NCBI GenBank assembly: GCA_028284865.1
Contig: JANQQV010000006.1
Span: 62,001 to 126,000 of the forward strand
DNA length: 64,000 nucleotides
Source of the DNA: Rhodothermales bacterium
Lineage (GTDB): Bacteria > Bacteroidota > Rhodothermia > Rhodothermales > UBA10348
Direction of reading: 5' to 3'
Part shown: in pieces, positions 39,599-46,950 of the stretch
Position numbering within the stretch: the first letter of the stretch is position 1
Layout: every line of letters starts with the position of its first letter
The notes under the pieces: model-generated
The model's database searches: none
Told to the model about the DNA's origin: nothing
What the model saw: the letters and a program-made list of their open reading frames with translations, nothing else
Translations under genes and position numbers: made by a program

Positions 39599-42500
39599 GT
39601 GTCGCTTGAACTGATCCGGACCCGAATCGCGTCGGCCTCTTTCAGCCGACGTCTTTCCGAATGGGCCTCCCCTTTTGAGGGCGGCGCAAACGGGAGTGAT
39701 ATGCCCGGTTCTGGCCGCAGCGTCTCCATTCGAGGCGCGGTGGGCTCTCTTCCCGCATTCCTGGCGGCCAACGCATTCCTGGAGTCATCCCGGCCCATGT
39801 TGTGCCTGCTGCCCGATGATGATGCGGCCGCATTCTTTGGTTCGGACCTGCAGCAGATTCTGGGCTCTGATGACAATGTCATCCTGCTTCCGGTTTCAGA
39901 CAATCGGCCCTTTGACCCCGAACACATGCCTGATCCGGCGCCCACGATGGCGCGCGGAGATGTGTTGGAGAGACTGAAGGACGGTTTCAAGGGGATTTTG
40001 GTTTGCAGTATCCCTGCCTTCTCCGAAAAAGTCCCCCCGGTCGAAGCCGTCCAGTCAGCGACGCTCGACATCGAGACCGGGATGGAAATGGATCCAGAAG
40101 ACGTGATCGAACGGCTCGTCCTGCAAGGGTTCACGCGGACTGAGTTCGTACAGGCTCCGGGCGATCTCGCCCTTCGAGGCGGCATCCTGGATGTCTTCCC
40201 CTACACGGGGTCCTATCCCATCCGCATCGAGTTTTTTGGCGATGAGATCGACTCCATTCGCGAGTTCGACATCCACAGCCAACGATCGGTCAGTCGCCGT
40301 AATTCAGCACGCATCGTGCCGAATCTCGAAGGACAGGCCACCGACGTCAATGCTCGCATTCCGCTCACGGATCACCTGGATTCGAATACGCTCGTCGTCC
40401 AGATGGATGGAGCGGCGCTTATTGAAGCGGCGGACGTTTTGTTGGCTGAGCGGACAAAGCAACGGGACGCAGCGCTCGAACGGGCAGCTTCCGATGCTCC
40501 CGACGAGCAGGTCACAACCGACGATGAGGACGATCCCGATGTGGCCGCGATCCGGCCAGGAAGTGACCTTCCGGATGTTGATGCACTGTACATCGGAGGC
40601 ACCTCCATGCAAGGCCTCCTCCTCCCTTTCGACACCATTCATGTCGGTTCTTTTCAGGAATTGGCTGAGGAGCAAATCAGTGTCACATCCCAACCCCAGC
40701 CTGGCTTTAGTTCCCGTATCGCGTTGCTGCGCAAGCAGATCCTGGAAAATCACCAGAACGAACTGGACACGCTGATCCTCTGTGACAACCGGGGCCAGGA
40801 AGCGCGCCTGATGGAGCTTCTCGAAGATGACATCGAGTCTGGCAGGGTGCGCCTCAAGACGGAATCACTGCATCGCGGGTTCGAGATTCCCGAACTTCAG
40901 CTGGCACTCTACACCGATCACCAGATCTTCGGTCGCTACCACCGACCTACGGCTCGCAAGCAGAAGAAGCGATTCGGAGGACTCAGTCTCCGCGAACTCC
41001 ACCAGCTGACCCCCGGCGATTTCGTGGTACACATCGACTACGGTATCGGTCGATTCGCCGGAATGGAGCACATTGAAGTACGCGGCCGAAAGCAAGAAGC
41101 CGTTCGCCTCCAGTATCTGAACGGCGATACGCTCTATGTAAATGTGGGTGCGCTGTACAAGCTGCACAAGTACAAGGGCAAGGAAGGTCATCAGCCGCAG
41201 CTGACCAAGTTGGGGTCTGGTCAGTGGGAAAAGGCGAAGTCCAGGACCAAGTCGCGTGTCAAAGACATCGCACGAGACCTGATCAGACTGTACGCCAAGC
41301 GCAAGGCATCTGAAGGCCACCCCTACCCCGAGGACACGGTCTGGCAGCGCGAACTCGAGGCGTCGTTTCAGTTCGAAGACACGCCCGATCAGGCATCGAC
41401 CGCCGCTGCCGTCAAGGAAGACATGCAGAAGCCGCAGCCCATGGACCGCCTGGTGTGTGGGGATGTCGGTTTTGGCAAGACCGAGATTGCCATCCGGGCT
41501 GCGTTCAAGGCTGCCCAGGACGGCAAGCAGGTTGCGGTACTCGTGCCCACGACCGTCCTGGCGATGCAGCACTTCCGCACCTTCTCCAAACGATTGGCTC
41601 ATTATCCGATCAAGTTGGGCGTTTTGTCCCGTTTCCGGACGTCTGCGCAGCAAAAAGAGACGTTGGCAGAACTGGAAGCCGGTCAGATCGATATCCTGAT
41701 CGGAACGCATCGGCTGATCTCCAAAGACGTCGTCTTCAAGGACCTGGGTCTGCTGATTGTGGATGAAGAGCAGCGATTCGGCGTCGGAATGAAGGAGAAG
41801 CTCCGCAAGCTTCGTGTCAACGTCGACACCCTGACCTTGACGGCCACCCCGATTCCGAGAACGCTTCAGTTCTCGCTCATGGGCGCACGTGATCTATCCA
41901 TCATTGCGACCGCTCCCGACAACCGGCAGCCCATCCAGACAGAGATCCACGCTTTCGACAAGGATCTTATCCGCGATGCCCTGATGTACGAAATCAATCG
42001 GGGTGGTCAGGTCTTCTTCATACACAACCGTGTGCAGTCCATCGAAGAAGTCTCGGCCATGATTCGCATGCTTGTACCGAACGTCCGGATTCAGACAGCG
42101 CACGGTCAGATGAAGGGACCCGAGCTCGAGCGCATCATGATGGGTTTTGTGGAGGGGGAATTCGATGTTCTGGTGAGCACCAACATCATCGAGAACGGCC
42201 TCGATATCGCAAATGCGAACACGATCATCATCAATCGGGCTGATCACTTCGGACTGGCCGAGCTGCATCAGCTTCGAGGCCGGGTGGGCCGTTCGAATCG
42301 CAAGGCGTTCTGCTACCTGCTCGTCCCTTCCATCCACAGTCTAACACGCGAAGCCAAGCAGCGCCTGCAGGCGGTCGAGGAGTTCAGCGACCTGGGTAGC
42401 GGCTTTCATTTGGCGATGCGTGATCTCGACATCCGTGGTGCCGGTAACATGCTTGGCGCTGAGCAGAGCGGCTTCATTGCCGATGTTGGATTCGAGACCT

Positions 42501-43051
42501 ATCACCGCATCCTCGACGAGGCTGTCGAAGAGCTTCGTACGGAAGAGTTCGCTGCCGTATTCGAGGAGGAGCGAAAACCACGGGCAACCGAGACGGCGAT
42601 CGATGTGGATGCGGACGCACTGATTCCGGAGACCTATTTGTCAAACCGGATCGAGCGGCTCAACCTGTACCGTCGAATATCTGAGTGCCCCAGCCGAGAA
42701 GAGCTTGACGCGGTCGCCGACGAAATGGCCGACCGGTTCGGACCGCTCCCCGCCGAAGTAGAGAATCTGATCACAGGAGTCGAGCTCAAGATTTCAGGTC
42801 AGGGTCTTCGACTCACCAAGATCACGTTCAAGAACGAGCGACTTTTCCTTGGCTTCCCTTCCACGGATGACGACCCCTGGTTTTACGAGAATCTGTTCCA
42901 CGGATTGCTCGCCGCTCTTGGTGATCTCGACCATCGTTATGTGCTCAAGGAAAGTCGGGGCGGAAAGCTTCGAGCCATCATCCAGGATGTCCCAGACCTC
43001 GGGACCTGCAAGACGCTTCTTCATGACCTGACCGACAAGGTCCTGGCCTGA
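39599..43051 (+). CDS. mfd: Transcription-repair coupling factor
   Basis: UvrB-homology N-term, CarD-like LTPGDFVVHIDYGIGRFAGME, SF2 helicase motifs; GTG start. Confidence 0.95.
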   Translation: MSLELIRTRIASASFSRRLSEWASPFEGGANGSDMPGSGRSVSIRGAVGSLPAFLAANAFLESSRPMLCLLPDDDAAAFFGSDLQQILGSDDNVILLPVSDNRPFDPEHMPDPAPTMARGDVLERLKDGFKGILVCSIPAFSEKVPPVEAVQSATLDIETGMEMDPEDVIERLVLQGFTRTEFVQAPGDLALRGGILDVFPYTGSYPIRIEFFGDEIDSIREFDIHSQRSVSRRNSARIVPNLEGQATDVNARIPLTDHLDSNTLVVQMDGAALIEAADVLLAERTKQRDAALERAASDAPDEQVTTDDEDDPDVAAIRPGSDLPDVDALYIGGTSMQGLLLPFDTIHVGSFQELAEEQISVTSQPQPGFSSRIALLRKQILENHQNELDTLILCDNRGQEARLMELLEDDIESGRVRLKTESLHRGFEIPELQLALYTDHQIFGRYHRPTARKQKKRFGGLSLRELHQLTPGDFVVHIDYGIGRFAGMEHIEVRGRKQEAVRLQYLNGDTLYVNVGALYKLHKYKGKEGHQPQLTKLGSGQWEKAKSRTKSRVKDIARDLIRLYAKRKASEGHPYPEDTVWQRELEASFQFEDTPDQASTAAAVKEDMQKPQPMDRLVCGDVGFGKTEIAIRAAFKAAQDGKQVAVLVPTTVLAMQHFRTFSKRLAHYPIKLGVLSRFRTSAQQKETLAELEAGQIDILIGTHRLISKDVVFKDLGLLIVDEEQRFGVGMKEKLRKLRVNVDTLTLTATPIPRTLQFSLMGARDLSIIATAPDNRQPIQTEIHAFDKDLIRDALMYEINRGGQVFFIHNRVQSIEEVSAMIRMLVPNVRIQTAHGQMKGPELERIMMGFVEGEFDVLVSTNIIENGLDIANANTIIINRADHFGLAELHQLRGRVGRSNRKAFCYLLVPSIHSLTREAKQRLQAVEEFSDLGSGFHLAMRDLDIRGAGNMLGAEQSGFIADVGFETYHRILDEAVEELRTEEFAAVFEEERKPRATETAIDVDADALIPETYLSNRIERLNLYRRISECPSREELDAVADEMADRFGPLPAEVENLITGVELKISGQGLRLTKITFKNERLFLGFPSTDDDPWFYENLFHGLLAALGDLDHRYVLKESRGGKLRAIIQDVPDLGTCKTLLHDLTDKVLA

Positions 43052-43257: not shown

Positions 43258-44229
43258 CTAGTATTTGGCAACGATGGATGCCGCTGCCTCTCGGTGCCGT
43301 TCCACGAGTGCTTTCGGCGCAATAACGGATACATCGGCTCCAAAACGAAGCAACCAACCTGCCAGGTACCCCAGGTTCTCGAATGTGAAGTCGACTTCGA
43401 CCTTGTCGCCGCGTTGCCGCTCGTCGTCGATGCGCGCTGGAATCTGGGAGCGTACTCTCGGAAAGACGGCGGCGCTGAACGAAAGCTGGATCGCATGTGG
43501 ATCAGAACTCCGGCCTTCACCTTCCAGATACGTTTGAAGGTCGAAGCCGTCCGGTCGCTCAAAGCGCTCAGTCAGGACGAACATTTCTTCAATACGATCG
43601 AGCCGAAAATTGCGGATCTCCTCACGCAGATGGTCGAACGCAATCAGGTTCCAGTGGTCGGTGTAATACACAAGGCCGAGCGGATCCACGCGTCGCTGTG
43701 TGAGCTCCTGGCGACTTGCGACGAAGTACTCCATGATCACCTTGCGAGAGCGCGCGACCGCCTCGGAAAGCTTGAACCACTTGCCAGATTCTTCGCCTTC
43801 CGACTGCACAGCATGTGACCAGTATGGGTCCAGAACCGTGTTTTCAGACAGCCGATCGACGTATTCGCGGATCTCACGGGGCAAGACAGAACGAATCTTG
43901 AGAGAGACTTCGCCGGCGTCTTCGCGAAGCGAAGCATCCGATTGCAGACGCATGAACTCGGTCCCGACCAGAAGCGTGGCGGCTTCTCGAGCTGTCAGCA
44001 TCAGCGGAGGAAGCTGATACCCCTCTAGGATCTCATACCCACCACCCTCGGAGTAGGTGAGCGGAACGCCTGATTCAGACAAGGCGCGCAAGTCCCGAAA
44101 GATGGTTCGCCGACTCACGCCGAAGTGGTCAGCCAGGTCGCGACTCGTCATGTTCGGCCGGTTCTGCAGGAGCAAAATCGTCGCGAAAAGCCGCTCTGTT
44201 CGCGTTCCTTGTTTGTCGGACTTCGGCAT
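43258..44229 (-). CDS. HTH-WYL domain transcriptional regulator
   Basis: MTSRDLADHFGVSRRTIFRDLRALSESGVPL HTH plus WYL-like region (VDPLGLVYYTDHWNLIAFDHL). Confidence 0.88.
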   Translation of the reverse strand: MPKSDKQGTRTERLFATILLLQNRPNMTSRDLADHFGVSRRTIFRDLRALSESGVPLTYSEGGGYEILEGYQLPPLMLTAREAATLLVGTEFMRLQSDASLREDAGEVSLKIRSVLPREIREYVDRLSENTVLDPYWSHAVQSEGEESGKWFKLSEAVARSRKVIMEYFVASRQELTQRRVDPLGLVYYTDHWNLIAFDHLREEIRNFRLDRIEEMFVLTERFERPDGFDLQTYLEGEGRSSDPHAIQLSFSAAVFPRVRSQIPARIDDERQRGDKVEVDFTFENLGYLAGWLLRFGADVSVIAPKALVERHREAAASIVAKY

Positions 44230-44277: not shown

Positions 44278-44928
44278 CTATGACCCCTGTGCCACGTGAA
44301 TGATCTCCTTGGTTGCAAAAAAAGGATCAGCAGTTAAAGGGGAGAGCGGTATGCGCTCCAGGATGAGATGTGGACGAGAAGCCTTCAGTTCAGCGATTTC
44401 GGCTTCCAGATCACCACCTTTCAGACACAGCAACCCATCCTGCCAGTATTGCTGATCCAGGTCGCTGCGGGGCGTTGCTGCGACGCGTTCGTGCCAGGAC
44501 CAAAGCAATGCTAGCGGAGCCGTGGCGCGAGAGACAGAGAGGTTATTCGTCGGACCGTCAAACTGCTCGGCCCGCCCATGCCAGCTTCCCGCGTTTTTCA
44601 GTCCGAGTCGACGCACGAACAGATCGACTGAGCGGGTCTTTTTCTGGTTGGAGTCTACACCCAGAATCTGGACCTCAGGAAACAGGATGGCCAACACCAC
44701 AGCCGGTAGACCGCCTCCCGTACCCCAATCGACAACGCGCGTACCTGGCGCAATGGCTCGATGCGCCAGTGCCAGGCAGTGACCAACATGATGATCACGC
44801 AACATGCGCTCATCCTTGCGAGAGACAAGATTGAATTGCCGATTTACGCGTCCCAGCTCGACCGCGTAGGTCTCCAGCTGGGCCTCTTGCTCAGCAGTTA
44901 ATGCGCACGAAAAAGGCCACTCAGACAT
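44278..44928 (-). CDS. rsmG: 16S rRNA (guanine527-N7)-methyltransferase
   Basis: FNLVSRKDERMLRDHHVGHCLA, VVDWGTGGGLPAVVLAI; adjacent to mnmG. Confidence 0.9.
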   Translation of the reverse strand: MSEWPFSCALTAEQEAQLETYAVELGRVNRQFNLVSRKDERMLRDHHVGHCLALAHRAIAPGTRVVDWGTGGGLPAVVLAILFPEVQILGVDSNQKKTRSVDLFVRRLGLKNAGSWHGRAEQFDGPTNNLSVSRATAPLALLWSWHERVAATPRSDLDQQYWQDGLLCLKGGDLEAEIAELKASRPHLILERIPLSPLTADPFFATKEIIHVAQGS

Positions 44929-44951
44929 GGAAAGACCGATTAGGCGAGGGT

Positions 44952-44967
44952 TGTTTCACGTGAAACA
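44952..44967. promoter_or_regulatory. parS-type ParB-binding palindrome, copy 1
   Basis: TGTTTCACGTGAAACA, perfect 16-bp palindrome matching parS consensus. Confidence 0.88.
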
Positions 44968-45019
44968 TAGGATTGAGCCACGCAGAAAAGAAGCGAGACC
45001 TCTCGAACAGGAGGGAAGA

Positions 45020-45035
45020 TGTTTCACGTGAAACA
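45020..45035. promoter_or_regulatory. parS-type ParB-binding palindrome, copy 2
   Basis: TGTTTCACGTGAAACA, identical to copy 1, 68 bp start to start. Confidence 0.88.
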
Positions 45036-45051
45036 CCGCTGCGAAAAGGTC

Positions 45052-46950
45052 CTACTTGACCACAGTCAATCGAGGAAAGCGCCCAGACTTGACCATGACC
45101 ATCAAAACGGAAACGTCGGAAGGAGAGACCCCCGAAATTCTGGAGGCCTGCCCCAGGTTCTCCGGACGGATCCGATCCAGCTTCTCACGGGCCTCCGTCG
45201 AAATGTTCTGGATATCCAGGTAGTCCAGATCGTTTGGCATGGGAAGCGCCTCGAGCTGTTCCATCTTCTCGATCAGCCCTCTTTCCCGCTCAACGTATCC
45301 CTCGTACTTGAGATCGATTTCGACCATGTCCTCAACCCGCTCCAACCCTTCGATTGGCGGAATGAGATCACTGAAACCCGTTTTGCGGAGTAAGGCGCCC
45401 AGATTCACCTCCGGACGCAGCGCAACCTTCGAAATGCGGTCAGTTTGGCGGACCGGTGCGCTATCCAATGAGGCCAGGAATGGGTTGGCCGCTTCAGCAG
45501 TAATGCTTGTGGACCGTACGGCGTTAAGAAGCCCGGTTCTGGCTTCGCGCCGTGCCTCCATTCTTTTGAGGCGCTCATCCGATACCAGGCCCATCTCTGC
45601 TCCAAGCGCGCTCAGTCGCTCATCCGCATTGTCCTGTCTCAGCATCATGCGATGCTCAGCGCGGGACGTAAACATGCGATAGGGCTCTTCCGTGCCTTTG
45701 GCCACGAGGTCATCAATCAAGACCCCGATGTAGGCTTCTGAACGCTTGAGGACCATCTGGTCTTTTTCCTGCACGAAGCGCGCCGCATTCGCTCCAGCTA
45801 TGAGACCTTGCGCGCCCGCCTCTTCATACCCTGTCGTACCGTTGATCTGTCCGGCAAAGAAGAGGCCCCGCACCGTCTTGGTCTCCAGCGAATACCGGAG
45901 TTGGTAAGGGGGGAAGTAGTCATACTCGATGGCATAGCCCGGGCGCAGCATGTGTACACTCTCCAAACCAGGAACACGTCGAATGGCATCCATCTGTACT
46001 TCCTCGGGCAGGCTCGTCGAGAATCCGTTTACATAGATCTCGTGCGTATTCCAGCCTTCGGGCTCGAGAAAGAGCTGATGCCGATCCTTGTCAGCAAACC
46101 GGTCAATCTTGTCCTCAATAGAGGGGCAGTACCGCGGTCCGGTGCCCTGAATTCGGCCCACGAACATGGGGCTTCGATCAAAACCGGTGCGGAGGACATC
46201 GTGGACTTCCGGATCGGTGAACGTGATCCAGCAGCACAGCTGCTTCTCCGGAAGAGCATCCGTCATGTAGCTGAATGGGACGGGCTCGGCGTCGCCTTCC
46301 TGAACTTCCAGCTTTGAGTAGTCAATCGTGCGCCCATCCAGTCGGGGGGGAGTCCCCGTCTTCAGTCGCCCCGATTCAAATCCCAATTCGTGGAGGGCTC
46401 CGGTCAATCCTCTTGATGCGCCTTCTCCCATGCGGCCACCACCGTAGGAACGATCCCCGATGTGAATCTGTCCGTTCATGAACGTGCCGCTTGTGAGCAC
46501 GATGGCCTTGGCCGGGATCTCCACGCCTAACTGGGTGATCACACCCGTAATCCGGTCGCCTTCAGTCAACAGGTCGACGACCATGTCGGATCGCATAAAC
46601 AGATTGGGTTGCGCTTCTAGCATTCGCCGAACAGCGTCGGCATACATGAACCGATCGCATTGCGCGCGTGGTGACCAGACGGCTGGACCCTTGCTTCGAT
46701 TCAGCATCCGGAATTGAAGGCCGGACTCATCGGTGGCCAGACCCATCAGTCCGCCGAGCGCATCGATCTCACGAGCGATCTGGCCCTTGCCAATTCCGCC
46801 GATCGCCGGATTGCACGACATGCGACCGATGGCCTCCAGGCTCATCGTGATCAGAAGCGTGCGTGCGCCCATGCGTGCTGCAGCTGCCGCTGCCTCACTG
46901 CCGGCATGCCCGCCACCCACGACCACAATATCGTATCCTTCGTCCTTCAA
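45052..46950 (-). CDS. mnmG: tRNA uridine-5-carboxymethylaminomethyl synthesis enzyme MnmG
   Basis: YDIVVVGGGHAGSEAAAAAARMG, GTFMNGQIHIG, GLFFAGQINGTTGYEEA; apparent TTG start. Confidence 0.95.
   Translation of the reverse strand: MKDEGYDIVVVGGGHAGSEAAAAAARMGARTLLITMSLEAIGRMSCNPAIGGIGKGQIAREIDALGGLMGLATDESGLQFRMLNRSKGPAVWSPRAQCDRFMYADAVRRMLEAQPNLFMRSDMVVDLLTEGDRITGVITQLGVEIPAKAIVLTSGTFMNGQIHIGDRSYGGGRMGEGASRGLTGALHELGFESGRLKTGTPPRLDGRTIDYSKLEVQEGDAEPVPFSYMTDALPEKQLCCWITFTDPEVHDVLRTGFDRSPMFVGRIQGTGPRYCPSIEDKIDRFADKDRHQLFLEPEGWNTHEIYVNGFSTSLPEEVQMDAIRRVPGLESVHMLRPGYAIEYDYFPPYQLRYSLETKTVRGLFFAGQINGTTGYEEAGAQGLIAGANAARFVQEKDQMVLKRSEAYIGVLIDDLVAKGTEEPYRMFTSRAEHRMMLRQDNADERLSALGAEMGLVSDERLKRMEARREARTGLLNAVRSTSITAEAANPFLASLDSAPVRQTDRISKVALRPEVNLGALLRKTGFSDLIPPIEGLERVEDMVEIDLKYEGYVERERGLIEKMEQLEALPMPNDLDYLDIQNISTEAREKLDRIRPENLGQASRISGVSPSDVSVLMVMVKSGRFPRLTVVK

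Follow-up and report, generated by a model that had tools for sequence, protein, structure and literature searches.

The parS pair between mnmG and rsmG

The window, i.e., the whole stretch of 64,000 nucleotides analysed here, carries the genes mnmG and rsmG on its minus strand, and the short intergenic gap between them contains two copies of the palindrome TGTTTCACGTGAAACA, the consensus of the chromosomal centromere site parS. The features of the locus are as follows.

45052..46950, minus strand: mnmG (gidA), upstream neighbour of the gap (TIGR00136, 836 bits)
44929..45051, no strand: mnmG-rsmG intergenic gap, 123 bp, with both parS copies inside
45020..45035, no strand: parS copy 2, exact, 68 bp from copy 1
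44952..44967, no strand: parS copy 1, exact palindrome
44278..44928, minus strand: rsmG (gidB), downstream neighbour of the gap (best family TIGR00138)
43258..44229, minus strand: WYL-domain regulator (PF13280 WYL, PF25583 WCX)
39599..43051, plus strand: mfd (TIGR00580)

The gap is bounded by the start of rsmG at 44928 and the stop of mnmG at 45052, and the 68-bp spacing of the two sites is counted from start to start. The score of rsmG with TIGR00138 is 76 bits, under the cut-off of 99.5, and its position and its homologues agree with the assignment. The preliminary description had reported two identical, perfect parS palindromes in this gap and the gene order rsmG, WYL regulator, mfd, and both are borne out. 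In many other bacteria parA occupies the place that the WYL regulator has here. At the gathering cut-offs of Rfam no known RNA element is found in the gap, the only match in the window being a tRNA.

The sites are unique in the genome. Allowing up to three mismatches, the window contains two matches to the 16-mer, both exact, where shuffled sequences give an expectation of 0.18. With up to two mismatches, the two copies in the gap are the only matches across the assembly of 3,481,060 bases, and a reversed control pattern has no match genome-wide at the same threshold. At the base composition of the genome, a sequence of 3.48 Mb should contain an exact copy by chance about 3e-4 times. No site is found beside mfd in the window at up to three mismatches, unlike in several relatives.

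The partition genes lie on another contig

The assembly contains a single gene of the ParB family, located on contig C16 (C16:158417-159349), and its product contains the domains ParB_N (PF02195), HTH_ParB (PF17762) and ParB_C (PF23552). Directly upstream of it, and overlapping its reading frame by 4 bp, is parA (C16:159346-160167), which encodes a 273-aa AAA_31 protein. A full-length SMC gene is also present in the genome. A DUF5683 gene directly follows parB (L004:8765-9412).

The parS pair is located on contig C8. From the lengths of the two contigs (C8, 307,052; C16, 238,828), the distance between parS and parAB is at least 185.6 kb, and as the assembly consists of 28 contigs this is a lower bound. 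Within the 19 kb round parAB, no parS is found with up to three mismatches. Thus, the earlier suggestion that the sites are separated from their partition genes holds, and the search for parB proposed with it recovered the gene with parA adjacent.

Position of the sites relative to the origin

On contig C8, dnaA is adjacent to a gene that, from its sequence and position, we take to be dnaN (C8:236250-238993). The pair lies 130 kb from parS, and the distance from parS to dnaA is 3.7% of the genome length. The cumulative GC skew along C8 reaches a broad minimum, at about 175-235 kb and near dnaA-dnaN, before it rises; the signal is weak and noisy. The skew was computed for C8 and for samples of two relatives, of which that of G049 is too noisy for an exact origin. 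Classical DnaA boxes (TTATNCACA) have three matches in the 307 kb, none of them near dnaA. The parS pair therefore lies in the origin-side part of the genome, with the origin placed approximately by dnaA-dnaN and the skew minimum. This agrees with the earlier reading of the pair as an origin-side centromere, and the scattering of the 16-mer over the genome that would have spoken against it is absent, as the sequence is confined to this one place.

A second full-length dnaA is present in the genome (G000:C8:237449-238993 and G000:C21:72394-73884). Two DnaA matches are found in 14 of the 15 searched genomes of the same family, and likewise in several other families of the order.

The layout in Rhodothermales and across the phylum sample

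Among 80 genomes of the order Rhodothermales, the 16-mer is present with at most one mismatch in 68, and ParB in 79. The typical place of the site in the order is at mnmG/rsmG or at mfd. In the genus of the window both copies are inside the mnmG-rsmG gap, and in each of the 13 further members of the family for which the mnmG region was read an exact copy is located at the end of mnmG or in this gap. A second site on the 5' side of mfd occurs in G059, G070, G018 and G028 and also in many other families, and in family f4 the parS pair is away from mnmG. The 16-mer is constant among the relatives, while the flanking DNA of the gap looks, by eye, unrelated.

In genomes of the order with parS, parB and dnaA on one contig, the distance to dnaA is 20-270 kb for parS (nearest dnaA) and 340-850 kb for parB, and parS and parB are 386 kb to about 1 Mb apart. 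The closest case of parS and parB is 72.5 kb, in G017, on a contig without dnaA.

The same arrangement is found further out in Bacteroidota. Exact parS is present in 33 and ParB in all of the 51 sampled genomes of the phylum. Of the 26 loci with parS that were newly fetched, 25 have mnmG within 1.5 kb and the remaining one has rsmG and a WYL gene; neither parA nor parB is found at any of the 26 (1.5 kb on each side, E<=1e-3). Conversely, none of 34 parB loci, several of which overlap as copies of a single locus or are closely related, contains parS with up to two mismatches (up to 1.5 kb on each side, and 19 kb for L004). A stretch with three mismatches, probably due to chance, occurs in two of the 34. 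Many of the phylum genomes are fragmented, so distances between parS and parB are known for a few only: 733 kb in G085, 708 kb in G116 and more than 1 Mb in G083.

Across the order, and in much of the phylum sample, parS is thus ordinarily separate from parAB. The preliminary description had implied that the separation is unusual; the separation itself stands, while the implied rarity is not supported, given the site in 68/80 genomes of the order and mnmG at 25/26 loci of the phylum.

A probable centromere served in trans

We suggest that the palindrome pair is very probably the chromosomal parS centromere of a ParABS system, served in trans by the distant parA-parB operon; this reading is based on the sequence and uniqueness of the sites, their proximity to dnaA-dnaN, the genes found and the conservation of the layout. 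ParB from the operon would bind both sites as a CTP-dependent clamp and spread across the neighbouring mnmG-rsmG-mfd DNA. ParA would then move the ParB-parS complex, and this complex would load SMC, with the result that the origin region would be the first to segregate. As both Par proteins act in trans, parAB need not adjoin parS. The CTP-dependent loading of ParB at parS, its spreading, the movement by ParA and the recruitment of SMC have been reviewed (PMC7333895).

Alternatively, the palindromes could mainly be a transcription element, acting on the mnmG-rsmG unit as a terminator or operator, with the likeness to parS secondary. Their position between two genes on the same strand fits such a role, as do the palindromes of some relatives, which are 6-9 bp longer on each side, and that of L153, whose A and T runs on either side recall a two-way terminator. 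However, the arms of both palindromes in the window end at the 16-mer without extension, the conserved unit among the relatives is the 16-bp parS core, which is not restricted to this gap but occurs upstream of mnmG or next to mfd as well, and the genome encodes a ParB with the residues of the parS-binding type. We consider this explanation improbable.

Even less probable is that the separation is an artefact of assembly or binning, either a foreign contig with parAB or a wrong join. The assembly is in 28 contigs, which would fit such an error, but the estimated contamination is 0.07%, the ParB proteins of three genomes of the same genus are 73-81% identical, and the same separation is seen in relatives assembled into a single contig or a few contigs.

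Finally, it is barely credible that the sites are of the nucleoid-occlusion (Noc) type. The ParB does match the Noc model TIGR04285, at 247 bits, but the cut-off is 315. In an alignment with solved ParB proteins its HTH region (GKNRST...STGHARA) keeps the equivalents of R173 and G201, two residues reported to be invariant in ParB and replaced by Q and R in Noc (PMC7383237). Moreover, the site agrees exactly with the parS consensus, and no other ParB-family gene was found in the genome.

Comparison with known systems

The putative centromere shares with the chromosomal ParABS systems (ParB/Spo0J, ParA/Soj, parS) the same 16-bp site, a single parA-parB operon of the chromosomal type, SMC and the location of parS on the same side of the genome as dnaA. 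It differs in that parS and parAB are unlinked, at least 186 kb apart. Reviews describe the oriC region as the home of both parAB and parS (PMC7022226; PMC3899335), and the layout here breaks this pattern for parAB, but not for parS.

In Myxococcus xanthus, the parS consensus is of the TGTTCCACGTGGAAC type, which family f7 of the order shares (see below), and one of its parS sites is likewise distant from parAB (PMC3899335). However, most of its parS sites form a cluster about 4 kb from parA, and its parAB is about 35 kb from oriC (PMC3899335). Similarly, a Caulobacter strain with an inverted segment tolerates parS about 400 kb from ori and lives (PMC5815017), although that inversion was engineered rather than conserved in nature, and the displaced element was parS, not parAB (PMC5815017).

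Our search of the literature on parS in Bacteroidota, Salinibacter and Flavobacterium, which did not cover the main survey (Livny 2007), found no paper on this layout. The layout qualifies the shortcut that parAB and parS lie together near oriC, as in this order and in the phylum sample the putative centromere stays by mnmG and the partition genes are elsewhere, often hundreds of kb away. In draft genomes of the group, mnmG with parS could be used as a simple marker of the origin-side centromere. It can be speculated, though we find it doubtful, that throughout Bacteroidota selection keeps the centromere tied to mnmG and not to parAB, with parAB outside the origin domain. If true, the location by mnmG would itself be functional, e.g., through spreading of ParB over mnmG/rsmG or a fixed distance to the origin. 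The group also offers a natural comparison for the question whether parS must be near the origin while parAB need not.

Variant sites

Several sites in the genomes compared depart from the usual form. In family f11 (G031, G038, G044, G050), ParB is present together with only one or two parS-like sites at two mismatches, some of them far from mnmG; drift or loss of parS is possible in this family. An extension of the palindrome by 6-9 bp on each side of the 16-mer is seen in 8 of 120 distinct parS contexts, where 0.12 are expected at an extension of at least 5 bp (L183:7795, L183:7896, L051:4088, L153:1501, L131:1501, L135:1501, L197:1501 and L038:1459). Two genomes of family f7 without the usual 16-mer instead contain pairs of TGTTCCACGTGGAACA, a symmetric variant, at G007:C1:17465 and 17703 and at G029:C382:5542 and 5590.
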